From an uncultured Bacilli bacterium (GTDB lineage: Bacteria; Bacillota_I; Bacilli_A; RF39; UBA660): DNA of 40,335 bases. This document shows positions 1,977-17,225 of this stretch, piece by piece. The notes under the pieces are model-generated. The model had not been told where the DNA came from. It was given only the letters and a program-made list of their open reading frames with translations, and ran no database searches. The stretch covers positions 1 through 40,335 of the forward strand of contig CANRDB010000011.1 in the NCBI GenBank assembly GCA_947629315.1, read 5' to 3'. A program made the translations under genes and the position numbers. Positions within the stretch are counted from its first letter, which is position 1; every line of letters starts with the position of its first letter.

Positions 1977-2000
1977 CAGAAAAAGAGTATTGCTACTCTT
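1977..2000 (-). terminator. spoIVB terminator
   Basis: On the minus strand AAGAGTA, loop GCAA, TACTCTT, then TTTCT. The spoIVB stop codon (1993-1995) lies across the first arm and loop. Confidence 0.75.
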
Positions 2001-2964
2001 CTCGTTCGGCTTCTTCTAACATATTGGTAATTAGTATACCGTATCCTTTCTCTGGACCATTTACTACGACATGTGTTACTGCTCCAACGATATAATCTCC
2101 TTGAATAATCGGTGAGCCACTCATACCCTGAATAATGCCCCCTGTTTCTTCTAGTAACTGTTGATCGGTAATCTCAAAAATAATATTTTTCGTCTTATCT
2201 TTGGTATTGGATACCTTGAGAATTCGAATACTATATTCTTTGATCTCTTGACCTTTCAAAACAGTTCTAATCACCGCATCTCCCTCTTTAATATCTTCGA
2301 TATGCGCTACTTTATAAGTCTTGGTATTATCAAAATTCTCTTCATAAGTACCAAATATTCCTTTATTGGTATTTTTACTAATAATTCCTAATGTATCCGT
2401 AACATTTAAAGTAGCATTTTTTTCTCCTGGAATTCCATCTTTACTCTTTTGAATACTTCGGATGGAAGAAGTAAAAATAGAACCTTCCTTGATACTCGCT
2501 ATTTTTCCACTACTAGAATCGACAATTTCATGTCCTAAAGCACCAAACCTTTTGGTTGTTGGATCAATAAAAGTAAGAGTACCAATTCCAGAGATGGTAT
2601 CTTTTAGATAAAGACCTGTTTTTTGATTTTTCATTGTTAAAGTGGTCTTCTGTTCTTCTCCATTTCTAACGTAGCCTATCACAATAGAGACATCTCTATT
2701 ATGAGATAGAAGAGAAGTCATTTCTCGAATCGAAGAAATTTTATTCTGGTTAATGGAAATAATCTTATCTCCTTCTTGTAAACCAGCTTCTACGGCAGGA
2801 TTTTCACCATCTATATCATAGGTTCCAATAATCATAACACCATCCATCTTCAGTTGAATACCAATGTTATCTCCCCCAGCTATGATATAGTCAGAATAGG
2901 CAAGCACAATATTAGGAAGAGTCATAAGAAGCAAAACTAATAGGAAATTTATTTTTTTAAACAT
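1993..2964 (-). CDS. spoIVB: SpoIVB serine peptidase (sporulation)
   Basis: SpoIVB is a PDZ-containing serine peptidase (family S55) secreted from the forespore; in Bacillus it triggers pro-sigma-K processing across the intermembrane space. Seen here: a signal/anchor segment at residues 5-22, a PDZ-like domain at about 30-110 (NPAVEAGLQEGDKIISIN), the GALGHEIVD motif with the catalytic His at about 145, and GMSGSPI with the catalytic Ser at about 284. Its 323 residues are somewhat short for the family but all parts are present. The RBS AAGGAG precedes the ATG. The upstream promoter fits the sigma-G consensus, which agrees with forespore expression. The gene ends in its own terminator. Confidence 0.93.
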   Translation of the reverse strand: MFKKINFLLVLLLMTLPNIVLAYSDYIIAGGDNIGIQLKMDGVMIIGTYDIDGENPAVEAGLQEGDKIISINQNKISSIREMTSLLSHNRDVSIVIGYVRNGEEQKTTLTMKNQKTGLYLKDTISGIGTLTFIDPTTKRFGALGHEIVDSSSGKIASIKEGSIFTSSIRSIQKSKDGIPGEKNATLNVTDTLGIISKNTNKGIFGTYEENFDNTKTYKVAHIEDIKEGDAVIRTVLKGQEIKEYSIRILKVSNTKDKTKNIIFEITDQQLLEETGGIIQGMSGSPIIQGDYIVGAVTHVVVNGPEKGYGILITNMLEEAEREE

Positions 2965-2990
2965 AAAAAACTCCTTATAGGCTACAATAT

Positions 2991-3020
2991 TAATATGGAA
3001 AAATATTCAATCGATATTCA
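2991..3020 (-). promoter_or_regulatory. Sigma-G-like forespore promoter of spoIVB
   Basis: On the minus strand TGAATA (3020-3015), a 17-bp spacer, then CATATTA (2997-2991). This fits the sigma-G consensus (-35 gnATr, -10 cATnnTA). No sigma-A TATAAT with a TTGACA-like partner is seen in this intergenic region. Confidence 0.6.
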
Positions 3021-3021
3021 C

Positions 3022-3048
3022 AAAAAAAAGAATTCCTAAGAATTCTTT
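3022..3048 (-). terminator. Sortase-gene terminator
   Basis: AAAGAATTC, CTAA loop, GAATTCTTT with an 8-nt T-run on the minus strand. The sortase stop codon overlaps the base of the stem. Confidence 0.8.
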
Positions 3049-4391
3049 TAACGAGCTTGTGTTTTTACTAATTTGGCATGGATTACAATTCTATCCCCTG
3101 TTAAATTTAAACAAGTAGATAACGTTAAAATTTTGTCATCCTTATCTACCTCTACATCAAAGTCATAAATACTTCTAGAGACAATCTTCTTTAAGAATTT
3201 TTCATAATCTGCATCACTAGCAAAGTTATGAGTTAAATAATAAGATTCCTCTTTAATCGTATAGATAGATACAATTTGCCATAATGTATTTTGAGTTGGT
3301 GTTGACAATTTAATGATTTGGTTTTCAGTTTTCGTATACCAACTTTTGTTAGTAACTTTTCCTAAACTACCAAACATAACTTGATCTTTCCGACGATGTC
3401 CATAAATAACGGTATTTCTCTTAAAGTTCTCTAAATCAGAACGATAATCTGCAAATACCCAACCTGCACTATTCTTTGACTTATCAAAGGCATGGGTTAA
3501 ATAATAATCATTATTCGTCGTCTGTACAACGGGATAATTTACATTGGTATTATTGACATATAACCATGCCACAGTATCAGGGTTTTTAGATTTTAACTTT
3601 GTAAAATCAACACTCATCAATGGTGTTTCCATATACGTCCAATAATCGTTTTTCTTACTAGAAGTAGTTTTATTACTACTAGAGTTGGTATTAGAAGTCT
3701 TGTTTGTATTAGAATTCGTATTGGTATTGGTTGGAGTTTCGATGACCTCTCCATCCGTTACTTCTTCTATATTAGCATCCGCAATTAATTCTTCTGTCGT
3801 TTCTGTTGCACTAGAACCTTCCATTTTCCAATCTGCATAGGCACTATAGCAATTCATGAAACCTACAAACGAAATAGCCACTACTAACATATAAATAAAT
3901 TGTTGAACGGGTACTGATAATGGTTTTCTGTTCCCCTTCTTTTCTTTCTTATAATCTTTCTTTGGAACCTCTAACTCTAATAGTTGAGCCACTGTTCTTT
4001 TTTCATAATGACCTAATTGATTTTCAAACATTTGATTAAATTGTTCTTTCGAAAATACTTCGACATTTTCTTTCACAAAATAAGTTGGATGGTGAAAAAC
4101 AATTTCATAGAGTGCATTTTGAACACTCAACAAAGATTCCATCTTTAATTGTTCTTGAAAAGAACTTAATAAATTTACAATATTTTGAAAAGATACTGTT
4201 TGGTATTGAGGTAAAGTTTTTTGTAAAGCAAGCACCGGTGTATAAGTGATTCGATCATTTACCTCTTTATATTTAAAGCAAGAATATTCATTTTGTTCAT
4301 TGATACAAATAGCAAAATCCATGCCACTAATTGTTACAATTGTTAAAACAGTATAATGTCCATTTTGATTAGAAAAACACTGTTGTTTCAT
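3048..4391 (-). CDS. Class B-like sortase with an N-terminal cytoplasmic domain
   Basis: Sortases are membrane transpeptidases that cut an LPXTG-like signal and attach proteins to the cell wall or to pilins. The C-terminal 200 residues carry the catalytic triad: His332 in VIYGHRRKD, Cys427 in LTLSTC and Arg434 in GDRIVIHA. Class B features include NNDYYLTHAFDKSKNSAGWVF. Unusually, about 158 residues precede a single TM segment (159-182). They contain no signal peptide and would be cytoplasmic. A 60-residue Thr/Asn/Ser-rich linker (186-248) then spaces the catalytic domain from the membrane. The family is normally about 220-270 residues with an N-terminal anchor. The next upstream gene encodes an IPNTG-containing surface protein, its likely substrate. 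The gene has its own sigma-A promoter. Confidence 0.9.
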   Translation of the reverse strand: MKQQCFSNQNGHYTVLTIVTISGMDFAICINEQNEYSCFKYKEVNDRITYTPVLALQKTLPQYQTVSFQNIVNLLSSFQEQLKMESLLSVQNALYEIVFHHPTYFVKENVEVFSKEQFNQMFENQLGHYEKRTVAQLLELEVPKKDYKKEKKGNRKPLSVPVQQFIYMLVVAISFVGFMNCYSAYADWKMEGSSATETTEELIADANIEEVTDGEVIETPTNTNTNSNTNKTSNTNSSSNKTTSSKKNDYWTYMETPLMSVDFTKLKSKNPDTVAWLYVNNTNVNYPVVQTTNNDYYLTHAFDKSKNSAGWVFADYRSDLENFKRNTVIYGHRRKDQVMFGSLGKVTNKSWYTKTENQIIKLSTPTQNTLWQIVSIYTIKEESYYLTHNFASDADYEKFLKKIVSRSIYDFDVEVDKDDKILTLSTCLNLTGDRIVIHAKLVKTQAR

Positions 4392-4425
4392 AAATATCCC
4401 CCCTATTCCCTCATTGGTAGCGTTT

Positions 4426-4454
4426 ATATTACCACAAAATTAAGAAAAATGCAA
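4426..4454 (-). promoter_or_regulatory. Sortase promoter
   Basis: On the minus strand TTGCAT (4454-4449), a 17-bp spacer, TAATAT (4431-4426), then GGGGGGAT before the ATG at 4391. Confidence 0.6.
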
Positions 4455-4542
4455 ATTCATAAAAAAGAATGTAAAAAAATACAAATTAATTATATAACTT
4501 GTATTTTCTCTTAAATTTTTCCAACATTTACTTTACTTCACC

Positions 4543-4568
4543 AAAAAAGAATACTTTCGTATTCTTTT
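4543..4568 (-). terminator. Terminator of the surface-repeat protein gene
   Basis: AAAAGAATAC, GAAA loop, GTATTCTTTT on the minus strand (10-bp stem) with a T-run. The stop codon 4567-4569 touches the stem base. The rest of the 4392-4566 gap holds the sortase promoter and no ORF. Confidence 0.85.
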
Positions 4569-6171
4569 AGCTTTGATGACTTAATTTATACATACCGAAT
4601 GCACCGATTCCTAAAGTAAGAGCAAATCCTGCATAAATAAGCATAATGCTTAAATCTCCTGTATTTGGAATTGCTGAATGAGAAATCGTTACTTCAGAAA
4701 TTGTATCACACTCTTCAATGATATCTACTGGGATAACACCATCATTTAATCCGTATCCTTTTGATACACCAACAACGACAACGGTATATTTTCCTGGTTT
4801 TAATCCTATAATCACATGAGCACTTTTTCCAGATACCCATTTCTCAACTACTTTACCATTTTCATCTCTCAATTCAATGGTAGTACCAGCTAAAGCTTTC
4901 TTGGTAGTAGCATCGATATTGTATACTTTAATAGTTCCTACTTTTTCAGAAGAAGAACTTTGTGAAGTTTTAGTAGCAACTACATTGATAGTTTGTTCAG
5001 CCTGTCCTTCAGAAATTGTAAAATTCAAATCATCATTCGTTTGATATCCACTAGCTGCCGTTAAAACAACGATAGAGTATTTTCCTGCCTTTAATCCTTT
5101 TACTCTGTAAAGTTGTGTAGTAGTATCCCATGTATGAAGGATATTTCCATTTGCATCTCTGATTGCTAAAGTAGCTCCTGCTAATGTCTTATTCGTACTT
5201 TTATCTTTATAGTTGATAACTACACTATAAGTAGTAGCTGTTTGTTTAGTCTTTTCAGCACTGACAACAATTGTCTTTTCTGATTGACCTGCTGAAATAA
5301 CGAAGTGTAAATCTTTATTTTTTTCATATCCACTAGCAGCACTTGTTGTACTGATTACATAGTTTCCTGCTTTTAATCCTTTAATACGATAAAGATTTTC
5401 AGTAGTTTTCCATGTATAAATGGTATTTCCATTCGCATCTTTTAATGCTAAAGTAGCTCCTGCTAATGTTTTATTGGTGCTTTTATCTACATAGTTTACA
5501 ACGATACTATAAGTAGCAATTTGTTCTGACTGTTCAGCACCAACAACAATTGTCTTTTCTGATTGACCTTCTGAAATAACAAAGTGTAAATCTTTATTTA
5601 CTTTGTATCCATTGGCAGCACTTGTTGTACTAATCACATAGTTTCCTGCTTTTAATCCTTTAATACGATAAAGATTTTCAGTAGTTCTCCATGTATGAAT
5701 GGTATTTCCATTCGCATCTTTTAATGCTAAAGTAGCTCCTGCTAATGTTTTATTCGTATTTTTATCTGCATAGTTGATGATTACACTGTAAGTAGTAGCT
5801 GTTTGCTCTGACTTTTCAGCGCTGACAACAATTGTCTTTTCTGATTGACCTGGTGAAACAACAAAATGTAAATTTTTATTTACCTTGTATCCGTTTGGAG
5901 CACTTACTGTAGTAATCATATAGTTTCCAGCTTTTAATCCGCTAATACGATAAAGCTTTCCACTCGTTGTCCATTTGTGAATGGTGTTTCCATTCGCATC
6001 TTTTAATGCTAAAGTAGCTCCTGCTAATGTCTTGTTTGTACTTTTATCTGCATAGTTAATGATTACACTATACGTTTGATTCTCCGTTACATATATATCT
6101 GTTGCAGATACCTTTCCTGTTACAAAGAATACAAACATTGCAAATACTATCAAAAATATTTTATTTTTCAT
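4567..6171 (-). CDS. SpaA/Cna-B-like five-repeat cell-wall-anchored surface protein
   Basis: A 534-residue secreted protein. The signal peptide spans about 1-23 (MKNKIFLIVFAMFVFFVTG). Four near-identical 93-residue repeats follow (about 34-127, 128-220, 221-313, 315-403), each with TLAGATLALKDANGN and GLKAGNY. A divergent fifth repeat is at 412-498. The sorting signal is IPNTGD (501-506), then a hydrophobic helix and the short tail KLSHQS. The fold matches prealbumin-like SpaA/Cna-B domains. The usual isopeptide Lys (VxK) and Glu (ETxAPxGY) are replaced, for example by Tyr and by Thr/Val in ITTVSAPNGY, so intramolecular crosslinks are unlikely. The start at 6171 is set by AGGGGG and the signal peptide. 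It has the best sigma-A promoter in the window, so it may be a major surface protein. The adjacent sortase is the likely anchor enzyme. Confidence 0.9.
   Translation of the reverse strand: MKNKIFLIVFAMFVFFVTGKVSATDIYVTENQTYSVIINYADKSTNKTLAGATLALKDANGNTIHKWTTSGKLYRISGLKAGNYMITTVSAPNGYKVNKNLHFVVSPGQSEKTIVVSAEKSEQTATTYSVIINYADKNTNKTLAGATLALKDANGNTIHTWRTTENLYRIKGLKAGNYVISTTSAANGYKVNKDLHFVISEGQSEKTIVVGAEQSEQIATYSIVVNYVDKSTNKTLAGATLALKDANGNTIYTWKTTENLYRIKGLKAGNYVISTTSAASGYEKNKDLHFVISAGQSEKTIVVSAEKTKQTATTYSVVINYKDKSTNKTLAGATLAIRDANGNILHTWDTTTQLYRVKGLKAGKYSIVVLTAASGYQTNDDLNFTISEGQAEQTINVVATKTSQSSSSEKVGTIKVYNIDATTKKALAGTTIELRDENGKVVEKWVSGKSAHVIIGLKPGKYTVVVVGVSKGYGLNDGVIPVDIIEECDTISEVTISHSAIPNTGDLSIMLIYAGFALTLGIGAFGMYKLSHQS
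4990..6070 (-). repeat. Tandem ~281-bp coding repeats
   Basis: Four copies of a roughly 281-bp unit within the surface protein gene. The string GCTAAAGTAGCTCCTGC (plus strand) recurs near 5168, 5448, 5730 and 6009. Long stretches of copies 1-4 are nearly identical, so copy number could change by recombination or replication slippage. Confidence 0.85.
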
Positions 6172-6178
6172 ACCTTTT

Positions 6179-6193
6179 CCCCCTTTGACGGGG
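6179..6193 (-). promoter_or_regulatory. GC-rich hairpin over the ribosome site of the surface protein gene
   Basis: On the minus strand CCCC GTCAAA GGGGG. The GGGGG is the Shine-Dalgarno of the surface protein gene, so pairing would hide it. The predicted transcription start is close to the CCCC, so the hairpin forms only if transcription begins at or before 6193. Confidence 0.35.
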
Positions 6194-6196
6194 CCT

Positions 6197-6225
6197 ATAA
6201 TAACACAAAAATTTTTAAATGTCAA
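6197..6225 (-). promoter_or_regulatory. Strong sigma-A promoter of the surface protein gene
   Basis: On the minus strand TTGACA (6225-6220), a 17-bp spacer ending TGT, then TATTAT (6202-6197). It has a consensus -35 plus an extended -10. Confidence 0.75.
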
Positions 6226-6245
6226 ATTTTTGTGAAAATTTTATT

Positions 6246-6271
6246 AAAAAAGATAGAAATTTCTTTCTATC
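6246..6271 (-). terminator. Terminator of the CotH-VTC-DUF4956 operon
   Basis: On the minus strand GATAGAAA, loop GAAA, TTTCTATC, T6. The DUF4956 stop codon (6267-6269) is inside the first arm. Confidence 0.85.
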
Positions 6272-6923
6272 CATCGATATTTACTAAGTGAATGCTTTCA
6301 ATTTCCTCTTTATCTTTCAGTTTGGCAATCTCGGATGAGATATCTTTTGTCGCAAGTTCATACGTGAATTCGACCGTATTTCCCTTATAAGATTCTGTCT
6401 TTAAAGTACATTTTTTCGATTTATTCATAATTTTTGTGATATTATCAGCAAAATCTTTCTCGCCTTTAATTACTAAAAGATACTTTTGATGAGGTTTAAA
6501 GGATGTCATATAACAAATCAAATAGAAAATACCTAACATTAACGTCGCAATAATCGTGATGACATAAAGTCCTGCCCCTGACATAATACCGACAGTAATA
6601 GCCCAGAACATGAAGATGGTATCGACAGGATCTTTTACTGCTGTTCTAAAACGAACAATAGAAAGAGCACCTACCATACCTAAAGAAAGCGCTAAATTAG
6701 AATTGATGGTTTGAATGACTAAAGAAGTAACCATCGCTAATAAAACAATCGATAGGCAAAAGGATTTCGCATAGGAAACACCAGTATAGGTTTTCTTATA
6801 TATCATAATGATAATAATGGCTGCTACAAAAGCTGTCAATAGTGAGAAGAAAATATCCGTTGCTGATAAAGTGGCTGTAAACTCCTCAATTACACTTTTT
6901 TTAATCATATCTAAAAAGCTCAT
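6267..6923 (-). CDS. DUF4956 multi-pass membrane protein
   Basis: A 218-residue protein with four predicted TM helices in the first 150 residues. It has the conserved segment MVGALSIVRFRTAVKDPVDT and a soluble C-terminal domain of about 75 residues. The family is typically encoded beside VTC-domain and CotH proteins, as here, and its function is unknown. The ATG at 6923 has AGGAGG, is 1 nt from the VTC stop codon, and overlaps the VTC gene's last codons through that ribosome site, so expression should be coupled. Because the VTC domain next door lacks TM helices, I infer that this protein may give it a membrane site or conduit. The operon ends here with a terminator. Confidence 0.88.
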   Translation of the reverse strand: MSFLDMIKKSVIEEFTATLSATDIFFSLLTAFVAAIIIIMIYKKTYTGVSYAKSFCLSIVLLAMVTSLVIQTINSNLALSLGMVGALSIVRFRTAVKDPVDTIFMFWAITVGIMSGAGLYVITIIATLMLGIFYLICYMTSFKPHQKYLLVIKGEKDFADNITKIMNKSKKCTLKTESYKGNTVEFTYELATKDISSEIAKLKDKEEIESIHLVNIDG

Positions 6924-6924
6924 G

Positions 6925-7620
6925 TTATCCCTCCTTTTTCTCTCTACATAAAGCAAATTTAGAAACTGCTAAACGAATCATCGGTATCGTCATAATAACA
7001 CTCGCTATATGACTAGGAATGGCATTATTAAATTTCACCTCTAATACTACCTCCTCTGGTTCTAATACTGGTAAGGAAAGAAAATGAGAATCGAAAAGAT
7101 TCTGTTCAAATCTTCCTGACTGAATTTCTTCATCAAAAGTAATTCGCGTATCTTCTACTGGATAGGTATAGGCTAATCGTTTATAATCGACGATAACAGA
7201 TGGTCGTATTTCATGCAGTTTTTGTTTCAAAGCAAATTCCCGAATCAAACTATCTTCTTCTAGAGAAACATGAGAAAAATCTCCTGATAAAAACTCTAAA
7301 CATTGTTGTTTGGTAATTTTCGTTTGCTTCTTATAAGTTAAATCTCTATTTTTTTCTTTTCGTTCTAAACGAATAAAAGAATCATCTTGGTTATAGATAC
7401 GAATTCGATATTTCTCTCTCTTTTCTAATCCATCTATTTTTTCATAGTAAGCAGAATCATAGATATCATCAAAATAAAGACTTCGAATGAAATACGTGTG
7501 ATCTGGATTAGCAGAATTCGCATCAATATCCATTAGAAAGGATAAACGATACTTTAAGATTTCCGCTTGTTTCCGACTGATGATAAACTTTAATTCGTGA
7601 CGATAGCGTTTCTTATCCAA
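6925..7620 (-). CDS. VTC-domain polyphosphate polymerase-like protein
   Basis: A 231-residue stand-alone VTC domain (triphosphate-tunnel fold). In yeast Vtc4 this domain makes polyphosphate from ATP. Expected motifs are visible: YRHELKFII at the N-terminus, SLYFDD, YRIRIYN, LERKEK, VDYKRLAY, RITFDEEI and VVLEVKFNN. These give the Arg/Lys/Glu residues that line the tunnel. There are no TM segments, so it is cytoplasmic. The start is TTG at 7620, because the YRHELKF motif lies only a few residues in and no ATG precedes it. It overlaps the last 8 nt of the cotH-like gene, which implies coupling. Polymerase activity is inferred from the family. It could instead use another nucleotide or polymer. 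Confidence 0.88.
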   Translation of the reverse strand: MDKKRYRHELKFIISRKQAEILKYRLSFLMDIDANSANPDHTYFIRSLYFDDIYDSAYYEKIDGLEKREKYRIRIYNQDDSFIRLERKEKNRDLTYKKQTKITKQQCLEFLSGDFSHVSLEEDSLIREFALKQKLHEIRPSVIVDYKRLAYTYPVEDTRITFDEEIQSGRFEQNLFDSHFLSLPVLEPEEVVLEVKFNNAIPSHIASVIMTIPMIRLAVSKFALCREKKEG

Positions 7621-10480
7621 AGTATTTTTCCACTTCCTTACTACTCAAACCGAAATAACTTTTCGTTTGATTAATGAGATAACTTCTTCTTTTTAAGATG
7701 TAGTTTTTCAATTCTTGACAGTTATCTTCCCATTCTTGATAGGTCATCTTCCAACGTTTTTGATTTCTTTTCATCTCCGGTTTAATCAAATCTACCAATT
7801 CTTGATATCGCTTTAGAACAATTTCATCAGACCACACATTTTTCATATTGTAAGATAATCGATCTAAAAAGCGTTGTTTGAAAGTATTATTTTTCAATAA
7901 TCCTCTTAAAATCGTATTATTATATCCCCAGTCTCCTAGTCCATTAGGGGAAGTCATCCAATTCATATAATTTCTAGAATAATTATAGAACGCATAATCG
8001 AAGTCATAGAAAATCATTTTGATTTTTCCACCCTCTAATTTAGGATTATTAAAATACCGGGTATTCACAATATCATTATTGGTAGTATAGAGTTCTCCAA
8101 TCCAAAAATCAATAAAGTTATCAATATCTAATTTAGATTCTACATAAGCATAGGCATCCGCATTAGCCATATTATGATTTTGAATATAGTTTCTAAGGGA
8201 AACATAATCTTTTGAACTACCGGAACTTAAGACGTTATCTATCCGAATAATATTGGTTCCCTCTCTAGGAACATCATAATGGTGTTGGACAAATTCCTCA
8301 TCTACTTTTTCTCTTAGAAAATAAACACCCCAGTATTCCCCATTAATATAAAGAACAATCGCTTTATAAGCCTGTACATCGACTGTTCCATAATCATCCA
8401 TGATAGAGGTAGCAAGTTCATCTCGAATCATCGAACCGACAGAATCTTGAGAACCGCTTCTCACGACTAACGTATCATAACTTACCGCATCACGATTATC
8501 AAATACTTTATATTGTAATTTAGATGCACCGTATTCCGATTTAAATTTTAAAGCAAAACTTTTTTTGGAAATAAATCTAGTTTGTCCTCCAAATAATTTC
8601 ATTCCACAATCGATGGAAAAGGAAGATTCTTTTTCGTATAGTTCCGCATGTGCTGCTACTGTCAAGGTAGTATTATTAGGATTATTACTAATCTTTTTAA
8701 AAGAAGCATCCGGTAAACTGAGAGATAGTACTGGTAAAGTATGATTTTCATTGATGATATAACTTCCCGTTACCACTTTACTGGCTTTTTTTCCATTCTC
8801 ATAGGCAATGGCTTTCAAAACGGTAGTCTCATCTAAAAGAATAGGACTACTATATACTTTAGAACTGGTAGTTGGTATGGATCCATCTAAAGTATAATAA
8901 ATAGTCCCTGGTCCTTGCAATTCAATGCTTAAATTTTCAACATCATTATAAACTCCTGGTTGTATATTGAAAACTGGTTCATAGGCAATTTCCAAAATTC
9001 CACTTTTGCTGTTGGCTGCTAAAGGAGTAGGCTTAGAAAAATAGTAAAAACCACTTGACTCTCCTCTTCCATAACTGTATCCCACTGGGATACTAGCGAC
9101 AAATACAGAATCCACTAATTCATTATTTTTATATAAGTAGAGACTTTCCGTAGCAGATATTTTAAAATTGGCATGATCATACTTAGAATTGCTATAAGAA
9201 GTATTTCCTGATGCCATGATGACATAGTATTCTCCACTTTTTAATTCTTTCTTTGGTAGAACATACATCGTCTTATTTCCATCACTCGTCGTAAGAGCAT
9301 AATCACTCAATTGAATCGTATGGCTAGAATTATTGTATAGTTCTATCCAGTCGTAATATTCTCCCCCATTTTGCGCTAAATAAGAATCATTAGAACTCAT
9401 TACTTCATTAATCATTAAATCACTAGGATTCTTTCGATTATTTTTAACGTATTCTTCCATACCGGCTGAAGTATTAGGATATCCAGGGGTAATGTTATAA
9501 GCCTCTTTAAAAGTATTATCGGAAAGGCGAATATAGGCTGTTCCCCCCTCCAAATCCGTGTAAGATACTTTCTCTACGATATGATTCTTTTTCGATAACA
9601 ACACCGTCCCGGATTTTTTCTTCAAACTGAAACTAGCGTGATTCTCTTTTCCAAGTTCCGAAGTATAGATAAGATAAACTTCTCCAGGTTCTAGATTTTT
9701 ATCAGGCAATCTCCATAAAAATGGTCTTGCTTCATCATTCGATAGGAAATAATCTTGTAAGGAAATCGTTTCCTCTCCCTGATTCATCAATTCGATATAA
9801 CTGAAGAAATGAGAATTAAAAGAGACATTTCCTTGATTATTTGGTAAAAATTCATTAATGACTAACGCATCCGTACTTTCGTCAGAAGGATTTAAATAAG
9901 CATCTCTTCCCTCTTTATTATTAGGATATCCAGGGGTAATCTCTGCTGTTTCTATCCATTTTCCTTTCTCATTTCGAGCCATGACTGTATTTTTATCAAT
10001 GGAGGTAGTCTTAACACTATCGACTACTTTTCCTGATTTTCTCTTTAGGGTGATGGTCTCTCCGCCTGCTTTATTTAAAGCAAAATTGGCATACAAGCCC
10101 TCTTCATTTTTACCGGATAAATAAATGATTAAATATTCTTTACTCTTGATGACAACGCTAGGAAAAATCCATTTGACGTTTCCTGATACCTCATCACTTA
10201 AACCATATCCTGCTAAATCGATATCTTCTTCAGTACCATTATAAAGTTCAATCCAGTCGTAAGCATTGCCCTCACTATCTACGTAAGCACCCTTGTTCGA
10301 TGTCATAATTTCATTAATCACCAGAGTCGAAATAGCGATATCTTGATCTCCCAACGATTCCGTACTCGATTCTTTAGGGGTAAAGAAATATTCTGCTAAC
10401 ACCAGTACCACTATCGCAAGTACCATGGCAAACAAGGTGCCGATATTTTTTTTGAATTTTTTCTTATCTAATTTCGCCAT
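7613..10480 (-). CDS. CotH-kinase protein with three lamin-tail domains
   Basis: A 955-residue membrane-anchored extracytoplasmic protein. An N-terminal TM spans about 15-33. Three lamin-tail (LTD) domains lie at about 50-165, 205-320 and 354-460, each with INE(I/F/V) and, in the first and third, YDWIELYN. A chitobiase C-terminal-like domain is at 503-575 (TIYYTLDGSIPTTSS). A CotH kinase-like domain is at about 600-930 (KSFALKF, MIRDELA, YINGEYWGVYFLREKVDEEF, MIFYDFDYAF). CotH of Bacillus is an atypical protein kinase acting on spore-coat proteins. The Asp residues of YDFDYAF probably bind metal/ATP. It has no C-terminal sorting signal. It is first in an operon with VTC and DUF4956. AGGAAG precedes the ATG. 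The surface location is inferred from the TM and LTD content, and the substrate is unknown. Confidence 0.9.
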   Translation of the reverse strand: MAKLDKKKFKKNIGTLFAMVLAIVVLVLAEYFFTPKESSTESLGDQDIAISTLVINEIMTSNKGAYVDSEGNAYDWIELYNGTEEDIDLAGYGLSDEVSGNVKWIFPSVVIKSKEYLIIYLSGKNEEGLYANFALNKAGGETITLKRKSGKVVDSVKTTSIDKNTVMARNEKGKWIETAEITPGYPNNKEGRDAYLNPSDESTDALVINEFLPNNQGNVSFNSHFFSYIELMNQGEETISLQDYFLSNDEARPFLWRLPDKNLEPGEVYLIYTSELGKENHASFSLKKKSGTVLLSKKNHIVEKVSYTDLEGGTAYIRLSDNTFKEAYNITPGYPNTSAGMEEYVKNNRKNPSDLMINEVMSSNDSYLAQNGGEYYDWIELYNNSSHTIQLSDYALTTSDGNKTMYVLPKKELKSGEYYVIMASGNTSYSNSKYDHANFKISATESLYLYKNNELVDSVFVASIPVGYSYGRGESSGFYYFSKPTPLAANSKSGILEIAYEPVFNIQPGVYNDVENLSIELQGPGTIYYTLDGSIPTTSSKVYSSPILLDETTVLKAIAYENGKKASKVVTGSYIINENHTLPVLSLSLPDASFKKISNNPNNTTLTVAAHAELYEKESSFSIDCGMKLFGGQTRFISKKSFALKFKSEYGASKLQYKVFDNRDAVSYDTLVVRSGSQDSVGSMIRDELATSIMDDYGTVDVQAYKAIVLYINGEYWGVYFLREKVDEEFVQHHYDVPREGTNIIRIDNVLSSGSSKDYVSLRNYIQNHNMANADAYAYVESKLDIDNFIDFWIGELYTTNNDIVNTRYFNNPKLEGGKIKMIFYDFDYAFYNYSRNYMNWMTSPNGLGDWGYNNTILRGLLKNNTFKQRFLDRLSYNMKNVWSDEIVLKRYQELVDLIKPEMKRNQKRWKMTYQEWEDNCQELKNYILKRRSYLINQTKSYFGLSSKEVEKYFG

Positions 10481-10503
10481 GTCACTTCCTACTTTCTGTT
10501 AAT

Positions 10504-10531
10504 ATCATATCATAAAAAAGACATACGTAAA
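10504..10531 (-). promoter_or_regulatory. Possible promoter of the CotH operon
   Basis: On the minus strand TTTACG (10531-10526), 16-bp spacer, TATGAT (10509-10504). Weaker than its divergent partner. Confidence 0.35.
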
Positions 10532-10538
10532 GAAATGA

Positions 10539-10567
10539 TTGTCTAAATATGTATTTTTTGGTATAAT
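10539..10567 (+). promoter_or_regulatory. Promoter of the duplicated-module/NAGPA pair
   Basis: TTGTCT (10539-10544), 17-bp spacer ending TGG, TATAAT (10562-10567). It combines a good -35 with an extended -10 and is divergent from the CotH operon. Confidence 0.7.
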
Positions 10568-10597
10568 GAGTAAAGTTATGATTAAGCGAGGGAAGTT

Positions 10598-11953
10598 ATG
10601 AAAAAGAAGAAAAAAGTACGCGTAAAAAAGCAAGCAATCTTTAATCTAATGAGTGTAGTATTCCTACTAACAGTTGGAATTTACTATCTTACTAGACTCA
10701 TCCACTATAAAATAGAAAATGATCGCCCAATCGAATTATCTTCCCATTTAGCTACCCGTCTAAAGCAGGAAGATGATACTTATACATCGAAAAAAGTTTT
10801 AATAGAAACGAATGATATTTATCGTTATGTGGGAAATGCAGATAATAACTATCTTCAATATCGAGGATATCTTTGGAGAATTGTCCGAATTAATGAAGAT
10901 AATTCTGTTACGATGGTAACAGAAGAAGCAATTACCTATTTACCGTATGGTGGTTCTCTACAAAATTATATTCTATCTTGGTTAAATCATGATGATAGTA
11001 AGCACAGTGGTATCTTTGAAGACACCTTGGAATCAGATGAACTTCTTACAACAAAAATTTGTTTAGATAAATTTCCAGAAATTGAAGTTGCTGGATGCTT
11101 TGAAGGAAATAAAGATTATAAGATTGGTCTACTAAGTGTCTACGATTATATGGAAGCCGATGCAACTGAAAGTTACCTCAATAATGGTACGAATTTTTGG
11201 ACTACTAATAGTTATGATAGTAGTACGGCGTGGTATATTGCTGAAGACGGATTAATTGGAACCGATAGTTATAGTGCTAAATATGGAATTAGACCGGTCA
11301 TTACCCTATCTGGCGATACCGTTATTCTATCTGGAAATGGTACTTCCGAAGACCCTTATCTCATCGAAGAAAGAGACGTCAAAACCTTACAAGATAGTTA
11401 TGTAGGAGAATATATCCGTTATCAAGATCAATTATGGCGAATTATTTCCAAACAAGAGGGAAAAGTAAAAATCGCAAGTGAATCCTGTCTACAGGAGAAA
11501 CAAGGAGAATGTAAACTCGCCTACTTCTCTAAATACTCTAATGATTTTAATGAAACAGAGGAAGATAATTTACTATACGATTTAAATCATGACTATTATC
11601 GCAAAATCAACAACGATAATCTTTTAACAGAAGGAAACTTCTATACAGGTACTTATTCCTTAACTGATAATAACTATCGGGTTTGTCTAGATGACAAATT
11701 AACTTTACACGTAGGATTTCTATCTGTCGCAGAGCCATTTGCTTTTGAGGTTACGAATACTTTCTTAATGACAACGAGTCCTAATAATGAGATGAGTATC
11801 TATACGGTAAATGATGCGCATGCGATGTTTGAAGATAGTGTAACCCAAACCTTAGCCATTAGACCGGTTCTCTATATGAAAGATAAAGTTACCATTACCG
11901 GTGGCAAAGGAAACTATTTATCCCCTTATGAATTAGGAGGTTTAGAAGAATGA
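10598..11953 (+). CDS. Membrane-anchored surface protein with two related modules
   Basis: A 451-residue protein with a short basic cytoplasmic N-terminus, one TM at about 14-35, and an extracytoplasmic remainder. Two related halves are visible: YLQYRGYLWRIVRINEDNSV with KYGIRPVITLSG, and YIRYQDQLWRIISKQEGKV with TLAIRPVLYMKD. Each half ends in a Gly-rich turn and DPYLIE or SPYELG. The WRI...IRPV(I/L) pattern resembles the DUF6273-type module of gut Firmicutes surface proteins. I am not certain of that family, and no function is known. GAGGGAAG precedes the ATG. It overlaps the next gene by ATGA, so the two products are probably made together. Several cysteines are present outside the membrane. 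Confidence 0.75.
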   Translation: MKKKKKVRVKKQAIFNLMSVVFLLTVGIYYLTRLIHYKIENDRPIELSSHLATRLKQEDDTYTSKKVLIETNDIYRYVGNADNNYLQYRGYLWRIVRINEDNSVTMVTEEAITYLPYGGSLQNYILSWLNHDDSKHSGIFEDTLESDELLTTKICLDKFPEIEVAGCFEGNKDYKIGLLSVYDYMEADATESYLNNGTNFWTTNSYDSSTAWYIAEDGLIGTDSYSAKYGIRPVITLSGDTVILSGNGTSEDPYLIEERDVKTLQDSYVGEYIRYQDQLWRIISKQEGKVKIASESCLQEKQGECKLAYFSKYSNDFNETEEDNLLYDLNHDYYRKINNDNLLTEGNFYTGTYSLTDNNYRVCLDDKLTLHVGFLSVAEPFAFEVTNTFLMTTSPNNEMSIYTVNDAHAMFEDSVTQTLAIRPVLYMKDKVTITGGKGNYLSPYELGGLEE

Positions 11954-13080
11954 CACAAACGAAAGAAAAAGACAAAAAACAGATAAAAAAAGAAAAAAGA
12001 AAAGAACAATCCTCTAAAGAAGAGAAACAAGAATCAAAGAACAAAAAGAAAAAAGAGTCCCCTACTCCTAAGAAAAAGAAAACCAAAAAGAAAAAATTAT
12101 CCATTTTCACAATCATCTGTGGATTCTTTGATTTATTAGCGGTAGCATTCTTCATCGTTGTTTATATGGTTCCTAACTTCAAAACTTGGTGGATTACGAC
12201 TGCTTTAGCGACTGGGAATCATAAATATTTTGCCAATGTGCTTTATTCTAAAGAAGATATTGATAGAGTATTAACGAAAAATAACGTAGAAGAATTCAGT
12301 GATAATACGGATGTCGATGCCATTACCTTTCATGATACAAAAACCGATACTTATGAATCTCGCTTTGAAGAACAAATTCTAAAACGAGATGAGGGTAATG
12401 ATCTATATAAAGTGGTAGAAATTGATGAGAAAGATTACCGTGGATATTTAGTAGTCATCTATGATGCTGCGCGTGTTTCGCTCGTTTCTTCTTCTAAAAG
12501 TTACGGACAAAAACTTACGCAAATGTCGCAAGAAAACAATGCAATTGTCGCAATTAACGCCAGTGGATTTTCTTATGCGGGTGGTCATATGACAGCGACT
12601 GGAACGGTTATTCAAAATGGAAAAGTAACATCGGTTGGTAGTCGAAATACCCATGGTGGAGGCCTTGTTGGATTTACCAAGAATCACGTTTTGATGTTGA
12701 CGACAGATAGTGCTCAAACTGCTATTAAAAACGGAATGTGGGATGCTATGACATTTGGTCCATTCTTAATTGTCAATGGAAAACCTGCCACAGTAAAAGG
12801 GAATGGTGGTTGGGGAATTGCAAACCGAACGGCGATTGCGCAAAGAAAAGACGGTATTGTCTTATTCCTGGTAATCGATGGTAGAGGGGCTAACAATAGT
12901 GAAGGAATTTCCATCGCTGATATGATTACCCTACTTCAAAAATATAAAGCCTATAATGCTGCTAATCTTGATGGTGGAGGTTCTTCTACTCTAGTTATCA
13001 ATGGAAAACTCATTAATAATCCAAGTGGCTATGCCGTAAAAGGAGAAAGATACTTACCAAATTCTTGGATGGTCAAATAG
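11950..13080 (+). CDS. NAGPA-type phosphodiester glycosidase, membrane-anchored
   Basis: The family includes the uncovering enzyme that removes GlcNAc from GlcNAc-phosphodiesters, and bacterial relatives linked to surface polymers. Residues from about 165 carry family motifs: IVAINASGFSY, TFGPFLIVNGK, RTAIAQRKDG, LFLVIDGRG, AANLDGGGSSTLVINGK and the C-terminal RYLPNSWMV. The first 48 residues are extremely Lys/Glu-rich and cytoplasmic, followed by a TM at about 50-72, so the enzyme domain is outside. It is coupled by a 4-nt ATGA overlap to the upstream surface protein and is divergent from the CotH/VTC operon. The substrate is likely a sugar-phosphate diester in a wall or capsule polymer, which is inferred from the family. 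Confidence 0.9.
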   Translation: MTQTKEKDKKQIKKEKRKEQSSKEEKQESKNKKKKESPTPKKKKTKKKKLSIFTIICGFFDLLAVAFFIVVYMVPNFKTWWITTALATGNHKYFANVLYSKEDIDRVLTKNNVEEFSDNTDVDAITFHDTKTDTYESRFEEQILKRDEGNDLYKVVEIDEKDYRGYLVVIYDAARVSLVSSSKSYGQKLTQMSQENNAIVAINASGFSYAGGHMTATGTVIQNGKVTSVGSRNTHGGGLVGFTKNHVLMLTTDSAQTAIKNGMWDAMTFGPFLIVNGKPATVKGNGGWGIANRTAIAQRKDGIVLFLVIDGRGANNSEGISIADMITLLQKYKAYNAANLDGGGSSTLVINGKLINNPSGYAVKGERYLPNSWMVK

Positions 13081-13102
13081 AACTTCGGTTCTATTTTTTT
13101 TT
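13076..13102 (+). terminator. Terminator of the NAGPA gene
   Basis: AATAGAAC, TTCG tetraloop, GTTCTATT, then T7. The TAG stop codon (13078-13080) is in the first arm. Confidence 0.9.
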
Positions 13103-13104
13103 GG

Positions 13105-13131
13105 GGAAAAAAAGAAGAGTTATTCCTCTTC
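13105..13131 (-). terminator. Terminator of nusB-xseA-xseB
   Basis: On the minus strand GAAGAG, loop GAATAA, CTCTTC, T7. The loop contains the xseB stop codon. Confidence 0.85.
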
Positions 13132-13353
13132 TTCATAATGAAACTCTTCTAACGTACCGTCTTCTTTCACAATTTGATTTACTTGTTCTTCAATAGACTT
13201 TAATTTAGCGTCACATTCTTCCACTAATTTCATCGCTCTCATATATTTTTCAATAGAGGAATCTAAATCGATTTCCCCTGTTTCTAACTCATTGATAATG
13301 GTTTCTAATTCTTTCATTTTATCTTCAAATTTTTCTGTTTTTTCTTTTGCCAT
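13120..13353 (-). CDS. xseB: Exodeoxyribonuclease VII small subunit
   Basis: A 77-residue protein with the XseB signature FEDKMKELETIINELETGEIDL and a coiled-coil helical hairpin. It binds the XseA large subunit to form the single-strand-specific exonuclease VII. Its ATG follows the xseA TAG stop with no gap, and its ribosome site (AAGGAGG) lies in the end of xseA, so the two are coupled. The acidic tail ends in Glu-rich residues. It is last in the operon nusB-xseA-xseB. Confidence 0.95.
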   Translation of the reverse strand: MAKEKTEKFEDKMKELETIINELETGEIDLDSSIEKYMRAMKLVEECDAKLKSIEEQVNQIVKEDGTLEEFHYEEEE

Positions 13354-14697
13354 CTATTTGACCTCCTTTTTCCATACAGTTGCTTCTACCAATCCATCAT
13401 AAAAATGAATTTGTAATGGTTTTTGATCCTCTATATCTTGAATGCCTTTAACTACACGATCTCCTTGATAAGTTACAGTATAGCCCCGTTTTAAGACGCC
13501 TAAAGGATTTACTAATTCTAATTTTTGGATATCATGAACCATCGATACTTTTCGCAGTTCTATTTGCTTTTGCATCGCTTTATGCAATGTTGAAACATGA
13601 CCCTGTAAAGTTAGAATCATTGGTTCATAGAGAAGTTTTGGATTTTTCAGTAAATAATGTTTTTGATATTGCTCTAACAATCCCCTTTTCTTCTCTACAT
13701 AATCATTCATTTTCTCCACTAATTTTGTATGTAATAAATCAAGTCCTTGTCGTTTATTATCAAATAGAATCATTGGACTTTTTATCACGAAAGAATTCTT
13801 GATAGATTCTAGTGTTAAGGCTTGATATTTGATTTTCTTTGTCATAGCCTCACTCAATCGAATTTGTAATTGATGCGTATATTTGAGTAAGTCTACAACA
13901 TTGGGAACAGCCATCTCAGCCGCTCCTGTTGGAGTAGGCGCTCGATGATCGGCTACAAAGTCCGCTATCGTAAAATCAATTTCATGTCCTACCGCACTTA
14001 TAATAGGAATTTCTGATTCATAGATAGCTCTAGCTACTATTTCTTCATTAAAAGCCCATAAATCTTCAATAGAACCTCCACCACGACCTACAATCAATAA
14101 ATCAATCGGATAACTAGCTGCTCTCTTAATATTCCGAACAATATCTGGAGCAGCATACTCTCCTTGTACTAAACTAGGAAAAAGAATGGTCTCACACATT
14201 GGAAATCGTCTTTTGATAGTCGATAGAATATCCCGAATCGCTGCTCCTGTTGGGGCGGTAACAATCCCAATGCGTGTAGGATAACGAGGAAGTGCCTTTT
14301 TATGCTTCGGATCAAAAAGACCCTCTTTAGAAAGTTTTTCTTTCAATTGTTCAAAGGCAATATATAGGTTTCCTACCCCATCTTCTTGCATCTCTTCCAC
14401 ATAGATTTGATAACTACCCGTTGCTTCATAAATACCAATTCTTCCTACGACTAACACTTTCGTACCATCTGCTGGTTTAAATTTCAATTTAGCCGCATTC
14501 CTACTAAACATAATAGCATTAATTTTACTATTTTCATCTTTTAATGAAAAATAAAGATGACCTGTCGTATGATCTTTAAAGTTTGATATCTCTCCTTTTA
14601 AAAAGACCATTCGTAAATGTTCATTCCGATCAAACTGATCTTTTAAATAACGATTAATAGCGGTAACCGTTAAATATTTAGAAGTATTAGGATTCAT
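13354..14697 (-). CDS. xseA: Exodeoxyribonuclease VII large subunit
   Basis: XseA degrades single-stranded DNA in both directions to oligonucleotides. The 447-residue protein has the N-terminal OB-fold (FLKGEISNFKDHTTGHLYFSLKD) and the catalytic segment PTRIGIVTAPTGAAIRDI, LLIVGRGGGSIEDLWAFNEE, ISAVGHEIDFTIADFVADHRAPTPT, then a long coiled-coil region. Full length for the family. It overlaps nusB upstream by 11 nt and abuts xseB downstream. Confidence 0.97.
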   Translation of the reverse strand: MNPNTSKYLTVTAINRYLKDQFDRNEHLRMVFLKGEISNFKDHTTGHLYFSLKDENSKINAIMFSRNAAKLKFKPADGTKVLVVGRIGIYEATGSYQIYVEEMQEDGVGNLYIAFEQLKEKLSKEGLFDPKHKKALPRYPTRIGIVTAPTGAAIRDILSTIKRRFPMCETILFPSLVQGEYAAPDIVRNIKRAASYPIDLLIVGRGGGSIEDLWAFNEEIVARAIYESEIPIISAVGHEIDFTIADFVADHRAPTPTGAAEMAVPNVVDLLKYTHQLQIRLSEAMTKKIKYQALTLESIKNSFVIKSPMILFDNKRQGLDLLHTKLVEKMNDYVEKKRGLLEQYQKHYLLKNPKLLYEPMILTLQGHVSTLHKAMQKQIELRKVSMVHDIQKLELVNPLGVLKRGYTVTYQGDRVVKGIQDIEDQKPLQIHFYDGLVEATVWKKEVK

Positions 14698-15103
14698 GAT
14701 CCACCTTTTGGTGATATACCTTATCTAATACACCATTAATCATTTTTCGTACATCATCATCGCTATAAGATTTCGCTAATTCAATGGCCTCATTAATAGC
14801 CACTACCTCGGGAGTATCTGTATATAATAACTCATAAATACCTAATCTTAAAATGGCTTGATCAGTATATCCTAAACGAGAAATCGTCCATTTATGAAGA
14901 TATTGATTCGCTATCTCATCGATATCCTTCTGATTGGTAATGACACCGTATACACAGTTTTTTACAAATTCATTATCGATATCTAATACTCCTTGAATCA
15001 CTTGATCAATCTCATATTCGATTTTATTACTCTGATATACACCAATTTGATAAAGAATTGTCATAATCTTTTGTCGAAGTTCACTTCTTGTCATTTGTTC
15101 CAT
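14687..15103 (-). CDS. nusB: Transcription antitermination factor NusB
   Basis: NusB binds boxA RNA together with NusE and supports antitermination of rRNA operons. The 138-residue all-helical protein shows the family end (AILRLGIYELLY, VVAINEAIELAKSYSDDDVRKMINGVLDKV). I start at the ATG at 15103, preceded by AGGTGA; a GTG three codons upstream is less likely. An extended -10 (TGTTAAAAT) lies 17 nt upstream. The order nusB-xseA-xseB is the usual one in Firmicutes. Confidence 0.93.
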   Translation of the reverse strand: MEQMTRSELRQKIMTILYQIGVYQSNKIEYEIDQVIQGVLDIDNEFVKNCVYGVITNQKDIDEIANQYLHKWTISRLGYTDQAILRLGIYELLYTDTPEVVAINEAIELAKSYSDDDVRKMINGVLDKVYHQKVDHES

Positions 15104-16048: not shown

Positions 16049-16375
16049 TTATTCACTTACAAAACCAGATATTGTACCAAAAATCTTAATCACACTCTTT
16101 TCGACAATGGTACTAATTCCTCGCGATAACTGTAATCCTACTTTGGAAAATCGATTTTGATAATTTTTATCAGTATTGACTACATAGTTTTCAATATCGA
16201 TTTCTTTTCCCTCTTTGACATCCTGTTCAAATTTTTGAATCTGCTCTTTTGTCAGAGTCATTTTGGTATAATTTTGATATTCATAATAACCAGTTAATTG
16301 TGAAAAATAGAGAGTAAGAAAGGTAACAAAGAAAAATAAAAAGGTCCATTTAAATACTTTATATCGTCTGCTCAT
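16049..16375 (-). CDS. Hypothetical membrane protein downstream of spoIIP
   Basis: 108 residues: a basic N-terminus, one TM at about 8-28, and a charged extracytoplasmic part rich in Lys, Gln and Glu. No family recognised. It overlaps the end of spoIIP by 17 nt, so it is probably co-transcribed and coupled with it. A role in engulfment or in the same membrane complex is possible, based on position only. Confidence 0.65.
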   Translation of the reverse strand: MSRRYKVFKWTFLFFFVTFLTLYFSQLTGYYEYQNYTKMTLTKEQIQKFEQDVKEGKEIDIENYVVNTDKNYQNRFSKVGLQLSRGISTIVEKSVIKIFGTISGFVSE

Positions 16376-17225
16376 AAAGATATTCTCCTATTAGTGGCGC
16401 TAGTAAATCAATCGTATTTTGGACCTCCTCATAAGTATTTTGATTCCCACCGAGTTCTAACAGAATGATGTGATCGTTTAGGTCTTGATTGTATATCCCA
16501 TTCACATTAGGTCCACTCTGTAGTAATACTCCCCTACTTAAATCTGGATATTTTTTTTGTAATTTTTGATGTAAAGCATAGGCTACCTGATAATTTTTTT
16601 GATAATTCTCATGTTCTTTTCCAATCACCCATAGTATCTTGGCATAACTTTTACCATTCATAGTCAAAGTAGAATTCTTTTTACTGATTGCGTCTCTATG
16701 GACATCAATGATTAAATCATACGTATTCTTAGACATTTCTTCTTCTATGAAGTAACGACTAGCCTTGTAACTGGCAGTATAGTCATAATTATTGGCTTTC
16801 ATAAATTCAGCAATACTTCCCGTTTCTCTAACCACTTGAATATTTTGTTTACTTAAAGCTTGTTCTAAATATTTAGAAGCATCCAGTATTGTTTGTTTCG
16901 TCGCATATTTTTCCGTATCATGGGTACTATAAAGATAAACTTTTTTGATATTTGTCTCTTCGTTCATCACAGGTAATTCATTGCCGTTTTGTTTTGGCTC
17001 GCCGTGATAATTCAATAGAAAAATAGGATTATTGATCGTCTTATCTTTCAATTGTCCATAAAATTGTTGACCGATGGTCTCTATTTGCAGAAGTGAATCT
17101 ACAGGAATATTGACTAACGAATAAATACAGAGTTTCAATATCAAATACGCTAACGCAATGAAAAACAAATATTCTAACAACCACTTTTTTCGCAAATGTC
17201 GTTTTGTTTGAAAATGTTTTGCCAT
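16359..17225 (-). CDS. spoIIP: Stage II sporulation protein P
   Basis: SpoIIP is a peptidoglycan amidase/endopeptidase that works with SpoIID and SpoIIM to thin septal wall and drive engulfment. The 288-residue protein has an N-terminal TM (about 14-33) and an outside amidase domain with VYLYSTHDTEKY, DLIIDVHRDAIS (metal-binding His) and LLELGGNQNT (catalytic Glu). AGGAGGG precedes the ATG. SpoIID and SpoIIM are not in the window. Together with SpoIVB it supports a functional or recently lost sporulation programme. Confidence 0.93.
   Translation of the reverse strand: MAKHFQTKRHLRKKWLLEYLFFIALAYLILKLCIYSLVNIPVDSLLQIETIGQQFYGQLKDKTINNPIFLLNYHGEPKQNGNELPVMNEETNIKKVYLYSTHDTEKYATKQTILDASKYLEQALSKQNIQVVRETGSIAEFMKANNYDYTASYKASRYFIEEEMSKNTYDLIIDVHRDAISKKNSTLTMNGKSYAKILWVIGKEHENYQKNYQVAYALHQKLQKKYPDLSRGVLLQSGPNVNGIYNQDLNDHIILLELGGNQNTYEEVQNTIDLLAPLIGEYLYEQTI

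Follow-up and report, generated by a model that had tools for sequence, protein, structure and literature searches.

The stretch of DNA analysed here, referred to as the window, is 40,335 nucleotides long and carries a set of three genes encoding a CotH-type protein, a VTC-domain protein and a DUF4956 membrane protein, which we call the trio. The window is contig 11 (CANRDB010000011.1) of an uncultured Bacilli genome of 1.44 Mb that is 79.8% complete, and its closest named relatives are uncultured metagenome-assembled genomes of gut Bacilli. Domains of the window proteins were called with Pfam and NCBIfam, and all of those named in the original prediction, which was made from the letters alone (sortase, SpaA, DUF4956, VTC, CotH and NAGPA), are present. 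The trio genes lie on the minus strand. The first, at 7613-10480, encodes a CotH protein with three lamin-tail domains (LTD; Pfam LTD 151 bits, CotH 147.9 bits), and overlaps by 8 bases the gene of the VTC-domain protein at 6925-7620 (Pfam VTC 121.7 bits), a predicted cytosolic polyphosphate polymerase. The third, at 6267-6923 (open reading frame (ORF) listed as 6267-6956), encodes a DUF4956 membrane protein, putatively MgtC-like, with a C-terminal ACT-like domain, scoring 50.8 bits against a gathering cut-off of 30.6 bits (PF16316). Its start is the ATG at 6923, one base past the VTC stop and behind a GGAGG, and most homologues start at the same place. Coupling of the trio by overlaps, as originally proposed, therefore applies to CotH and VTC, and not to VTC and DUF4956. 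Promoters and terminators in the window were called as sequence patterns and are predictions. A hairpin with a T-run at 6238-6276(-) resembles an intrinsic terminator (fold -8.8 kcal/mol, z -3.0), and as read from this layout CotH, VTC and DUF4956 are one operon ended by a putative terminator. Upstream, a putative divergent promoter region at 10481-10597 contains two consensus matches, TTTACG-16-TATGAT with TG toward the trio at 10531-10504(-), and TTGTCT-17-TATAAT with TG toward a DUF6273-NAGPA operon at 10539-10567(+).

The surroundings of DUF4956 were surveyed at 121 loci. These include the 20-kb surroundings of 40 DUF4956 homologues from 193 sampled genomes of the order. Another 80 are named loci of bacterial or archaeal origin, the nearest to the window among the matches listed; the fractions given here are thus not population estimates. 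Profiles of the window proteins and of proteins neighbouring them served to label the ORFs, and a neighbour is a gene within four genes. VTC neighbours DUF4956 in 117 of the 121 loci, on the same strand in all 117, directly adjacent in 116, and with a median gap of 13 bases. For this reason, VTC and DUF4956 are a near-obligate pair. The remaining loci are one DUF4956 hit that aligns as a MgtC-like protein without the DUF4956-specific Arg (L072), two in which DUF4956 lies at a contig end (L109 and L128), and one in which an unlabelled ORF of VTC size fills the place of VTC (L105). Across the surveyed loci, VTC and DUF4956 protein distances correlate at r = 0.93, and DUF4956 is present in 36 of the 37 VTC-bearing genomes of the order. 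Co-occurrence outside the window's lineage, a test set beforehand, was found, the trio being present in Bacilli, Clostridia, Paenibacillus and Exiguobacterium. Two-component genes lie near the VTC operon at L150 (response regulator and histidine kinase, 1983-3909) and at L125 (histidine kinase, 13254-14750).

The family profile of the window VTC protein matches yeast VTC4 structures at 2.6e-22. Residues K11, R72, R74, K88, K97, R148, R159, E194, S220 and K221 are invariant or 99% conserved in an alignment of 118 VTC rows, as the original prediction required of its tunnel residues, and they map in order to yeast VTC4 K200, R264, R266, K281, K294, R361, R373, E426, S457 and K458, which we take to be the basic tunnel residues and the catalytic Glu. 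The window protein is thereby a predicted polyphosphate polymerase of the triphosphate tunnel metalloenzyme (TTM) superfamily. In its AlphaFold2 (AF2) model (pLDDT 77.7), DUF4956 is a membrane protein that carries an ACT-like domain. Its residues R102 and R104 are almost invariant and, from the order of the helices, would be placed at the cytosolic mouth. The window DUF4956 has no MgtC match in Pfam even at E up to 1, and a MgtC signal appears at that E in 10 of 20 alignment members; a sequence search of the PDB for a DUF4956 relative gave a chance-level match only.

The window CotH consists of a membrane anchor, the three lamin-tail domains, a Fn3-associated/CHB_HEX domain and a CotH kinase domain at residues 629-935. 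D803 and D826 do not vary across 96 aligned CotH rows and lie 23 residues apart, the spacing of D228 and D251 in Bacillus subtilis CotH, which are catalytic and whose replacement inactivates the enzyme (PMC7821199). The window CotH is thus predicted to be a kinase with the catalytic Asp pair of the CotH atypical kinases. The third gene beside the pair is not always CotH, which is found at 87 of the 117 loci, while Cthe_2159 takes this place at 24 and neither is present at 6. The CotH loci show four gene orders in all (VTC-DUF4956-CotH 42, CotH-VTC-DUF4956 42, others 3). On a joined VTC and DUF4956 tree, which was built quickly and has some long branches, the Cthe_2159 label changes 7 times, at least 5 of these changes being forced by well-supported branches. 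From these counts and label changes, the inner pair of VTC and DUF4956 is fixed, and the outer protein has been exchanged between CotH and Cthe_2159 several times. No account of this exchange was found in the literature searched. Hydrophobic N-termini occur in 114 of 116 CotH and Cthe_2159 proteins versus 1 of 116 VTC proteins, which points to a layout with VTC in the cytosol, DUF4956 in the membrane and an anchored third protein outside. In a same-genus genome (G137, L033), a second lamin-tail CotH gene directly follows DUF4956 at 10455-13343, doubling the outer partner.

The trio itself is not new. The genes for CotH, a polyphosphate polymerase (PPP) and DUF4956 have been published as accessory genes beside pel, the Pel-polysaccharide genes, in streptococci, clostridia and bifidobacteria (PMC7112168), and single deletions have been made in Streptococcus intermedius, where the authors proposed a role in phosphate metabolism and stated that they could find no such three-gene set away from Pel loci (PMC12345266). 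The original statement that the joint function of the trio had not been shown consequently stands only with respect to mechanism. What is new is that the trio is common outside Pel loci, against the statement in PMC12345266. PelF or PelG adjoins 9 of the 87 CotH trios, and neither is found at 55 of the 62 trios flanked on each side by 5 kb or more. Additionally, PelG was above the cut-off in none of the 193 genomes of the order, 37 of which carry VTC, nor in the window's own 79.8% complete genome; PelF was not searched genome-wide. The pel genes are absent from the window, and its trio is not contiguous with pelDEADAFG. It is on the well-flanked loci and the PelG search that the frequent location outside Pel loci rests. 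Also new are the exchange of the outer partner and the tie of NAGPA to the lamin-tail version of CotH in three arrangements. A Paenibacillus locus with the trio and PelF/PelG-type genes (L102) has a DUF2194 protein upstream, at 2917-4749.

Divergent to the trio, as originally described, lies a membrane-anchored NAGPA-type phosphodiester glycosidase at 11950-13080(+), with 141.3 bits to Pfam NAGPA and NAGPA relatives of solved structure. It is the second gene of a two-gene operon and overlaps by 4 bases a gene not listed in that description, which encodes a DUF6273-like single-pass membrane protein at 10598-11953(+) (weak Pfam DUF6273). The NAGPA motif DGGGS (D341-G-G-G-S345) is conserved in the trio-linked NAGPAs. 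NAGPA lies within four genes at 15 of the 121 loci, namely 14 of the 34 lamin-tail CotH loci, against 1 of 83 others, L084, where CotH would lie past the contig end. This link to lamin-tail CotH has a Fisher p of 4e-8, with kinship not corrected for. The three arrangements are NAGPA divergent behind DUF6273, directly after DUF4956, and after DUF4956-DUF6273, and the linkage changes 6 times on the joined tree. The DUF6273-like protein accompanies NAGPA in L033-L036, L074, L075, L078 and L084; it is rated an accessory, and is possibly a surface lectin partner of NAGPA. It seems to consist of two similar halves with repeated motifs. Its AF2 model has a pLDDT of 69.7, and a weak fold match to the C-terminal domain of Legionella Lcl (E 0.04) was not used to identify it. 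The idea of a private NAGPA subfamily marking trio genomes was not supported, because a profile of the linked NAGPAs ranks several NAGPAs of G069, G096, G083, G135 and G140, which are genomes without a lamin-tail CotH trio, above the unlinked NAGPAs of trio genomes; an apparent clade of linked NAGPAs in one tree was due to the choice of rows.

Downstream of the trio lie a SpaA-repeat surface protein at 4567-6171(-) (Pfam SpaA; ORF listed to 6225) and a class B sortase at 3048-4391(-) (TIGR03064, 168 versus 154 bits), one of three sortases in the genome. The SpaA protein ends in a sorting-like IPNTG, a hydrophobic stretch and a short tail. Its start is the ATG at 6171; the TTG at 6225, listed as the start, is instead the -35 box of the gene's likely promoter, TTGACA-17-TATTAT with TG (6225-6197). 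The SpaA gene has a predicted hairpin terminator at 4530-4575 (z -3.3), and the sortase follows about 175 bases further on, its membrane helix being preceded by an extra N-terminal segment of about 165 residues. The window and three of the four genomes of its genus that were sampled first (L033, L035 and L036; not L034) have both genes next to the trio; they are absent from nearly all other trio loci, and only within this genus do they stand beside the trio. The fourth of these genomes (G160) carries a SpaA relative on another contig. Where SpaA is missing, other proteins with sorting-like C-termini (VPDTG, PETG) occur near the trio, at L034 10673-11833 and L039 16233-17474.

Whether these genes belong with the trio can be read in two ways. 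The trio may be one system, with NAGPA, sortase and SpaA being unrelated surface genes gathered in the interval between xseA and spoIVB; taken as a whole we hold this reading to be a real possibility, at well below an even chance. It concerns membership and is compatible with either of the mechanisms weighed below. The genes form separate transcription units, the sortase and SpaA adjoin the trio only in this genus and not in all of its genomes, and NAGPA is found in 137 of the 193 genomes of the order, mostly without the trio, which counts against its membership. For the sortase and SpaA we accept this reading. They have putative promoters and terminators of their own and are not conserved with the trio, and since the block sits between xseA and spoIVB they are judged mere neighbours; in Firmicutes, xseA, nusB and spoIVB commonly lie close together on the chromosome. 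Both genes are indeed downstream of the trio, as the original prediction noted, and it is as parts of the system that they were rejected. For NAGPA we do not accept it. Its near confinement to lamin-tail CotH loci, in three arrangements and through six changes on the tree, argues for a function shared with the trio, because the linkage persists through rearrangement. NAGPA is thus likely an accessory of the lamin-tail CotH version, an add-on rather than a core component.

The explanation we favour, tentatively and at somewhat less than an even chance, is a membrane-spanning surface-phosphate module, with VTC inside, DUF4956 as membrane partner and CotH or Cthe_2159 outside. The cytosolic VTC would polymerise phosphate from nucleoside triphosphates, as its invariant VTC4 tunnel residues suggest. 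DUF4956, MgtC-like and with a cytosolic ACT-like domain, would be its dedicated membrane partner, a conduit or a gate. The anchored extracellular protein, CotH here and Cthe_2159 elsewhere, would act on the outer side, on the surface matrix. CotH would phosphorylate proteins or glycans of the surface and, given how little ATP there is outside the cell, might take the phosphate from the exported polymer; the carbohydrate-binding Cthe_2159 would bind glycan. In this lineage, the divergent NAGPA would act on the same surface polymer by trimming its sugar-phosphodiesters. The module is supported by the tight linkage of VTC and DUF4956, the conserved residues of VTC and CotH, the layout from cytosol to outside, the retention of the trio in four gene orders and the exchange of the outer partner, as well as by the published effects of DUF4956 and CotH deletions on Pel and aggregation in S. 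intermedius. The most specific form of this explanation is a polyphosphate synthesis-and-secretion machine, in which polymer made by VTC crosses the plasma membrane through DUF4956 and is then used by an interchangeable outer protein, the exported polyphosphate being, in the CotH version, the donor for surface phosphorylation. We consider this form unlikely; if true, it would account for an extracellular kinase working without ATP.

Several points weigh against the surface-phosphate module. No natural VTC-DUF4956 fusion occurs among the 121 loci, and the literature searched yielded no polyphosphate measurement for a bacterial trio. To our knowledge, polyphosphate as donor for a CotH kinase is without precedent, and we know of no MgtC protein acting as a polymer channel. 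The best PDB fold matches of the DUF4956 model, to MgtC C-terminal domains, are weak (E 3.4e-3, TM score 0.55 by target). In S. intermedius, deletion of VTC left aggregation intact with no defect reported (PMC12345266), an absence of phenotype that favours the chief rival mechanism, a regulatory brake. There, the MgtC-like DUF4956 would use its ACT-like domain to sense ATP, phosphate or Mg, and would lower exopolysaccharide output, with no polymer export, while VTC would buffer intracellular phosphate or polyphosphate and CotH would tune surface proteins by phosphorylation. We regard this as possible, though doubtful. The MgtC-like fold and ACT-like domain fit it, as do the two-component genes found near certain loci. 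In S. intermedius, Pel rose when the DUF4956 gene was deleted and fell when CotH was deleted, and both deletions lowered aggregation in artificial sputum medium (PMC12345266); the raised Pel matches the effects of MgtC, the loss of which raises biofilm and exopolysaccharide in Pseudomonas aeruginosa and which represses cellulose in Salmonella (PMC6454036). However, VTC retains every catalytic residue and stays with DUF4956 at almost all loci, neither of which a pure regulator would require. Nearly all loci also encode an extracellular third partner, and a recognised polysaccharide synthase is lacking from the surroundings of most loci. A spore-coat kinase system, with CotH phosphorylating proteins of the spore coat as it does in Bacillus, is suggested by spoIVB next door (1993-2964) and spoIIP (16359-17225) nearby. 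Bacillus CotH acts inside the mother cell, whereas the trio CotH proteins bear an N-terminal membrane anchor, and the nearby xseA, nusB and spoIVB are ordinary Firmicutes neighbours anyway. The trio also occurs in non-sporulating streptococci and bifidobacteria (PMC7112168), and we consider a spore-coat role very improbable.

Treated so far as a Pel accessory set, the trio emerges here as an independent and widespread module, and the fixed inner pair with its exchanged outer protein points to a general surface function. It offers a candidate route by which polyphosphate could be produced and delivered at the surface of bacteria, and a candidate answer to where extracellular CotH kinases obtain their phosphate.

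Among the closest known systems are the Pel accessory genes SIR_1594-1593-1592 (cotH-PPP-DUF4956), with the same three families side by side, namely an extracellular CotH, a VTC-type polymerase and a MgtC/ACT-like DUF4956. The window differs in the three lamin-tail domains of its CotH, and where the Pel accessory loci have a DUF4832 hydrolase or cyclic di-GMP gene, it has the NAGPA-DUF6273 operon. The Clostridium perfringens locus NELoc-2 contains VTC, a 'tubulin' of DUF4956 size, CotH, a 685-aa protein, a HEAT protein and a glycosyltransferase (PMC2879425). Its layout, with the same order, sizes and domains, is found in six loci of the order (L043, L046, L048, L049, L051 and L052), in which VTC-DUF4956-CotH precedes genes for a 705-aa protein, a protein with HEAT repeats and a GT2 glycosyltransferase; this suggests that the trio may serve a second polysaccharide type. 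NELoc-2 shares the core of the window trio, but HEAT and GT2 genes are missing from the window, where CotH lies upstream of VTC; in NELoc-2 CotH is downstream. The eukaryotic VTC complex, with a VTC4 polymerase and a VTC1-type membrane part, has the same tunnel residues and likewise a dedicated membrane partner. That partner is a VTC1-type helix bundle in the eukaryotic complex and MgtC-like in the trio, which also has no SPX domain and would work at the plasma membrane rather than the vacuole. Lastly, the MgtC family may resemble the DUF4956 C-terminal domain in fold, by a weak match. DUF4956 is in contrast a separate Pfam family tied to VTC, and its nearly invariant R104 is missing in the MgtC-like protein of L072.

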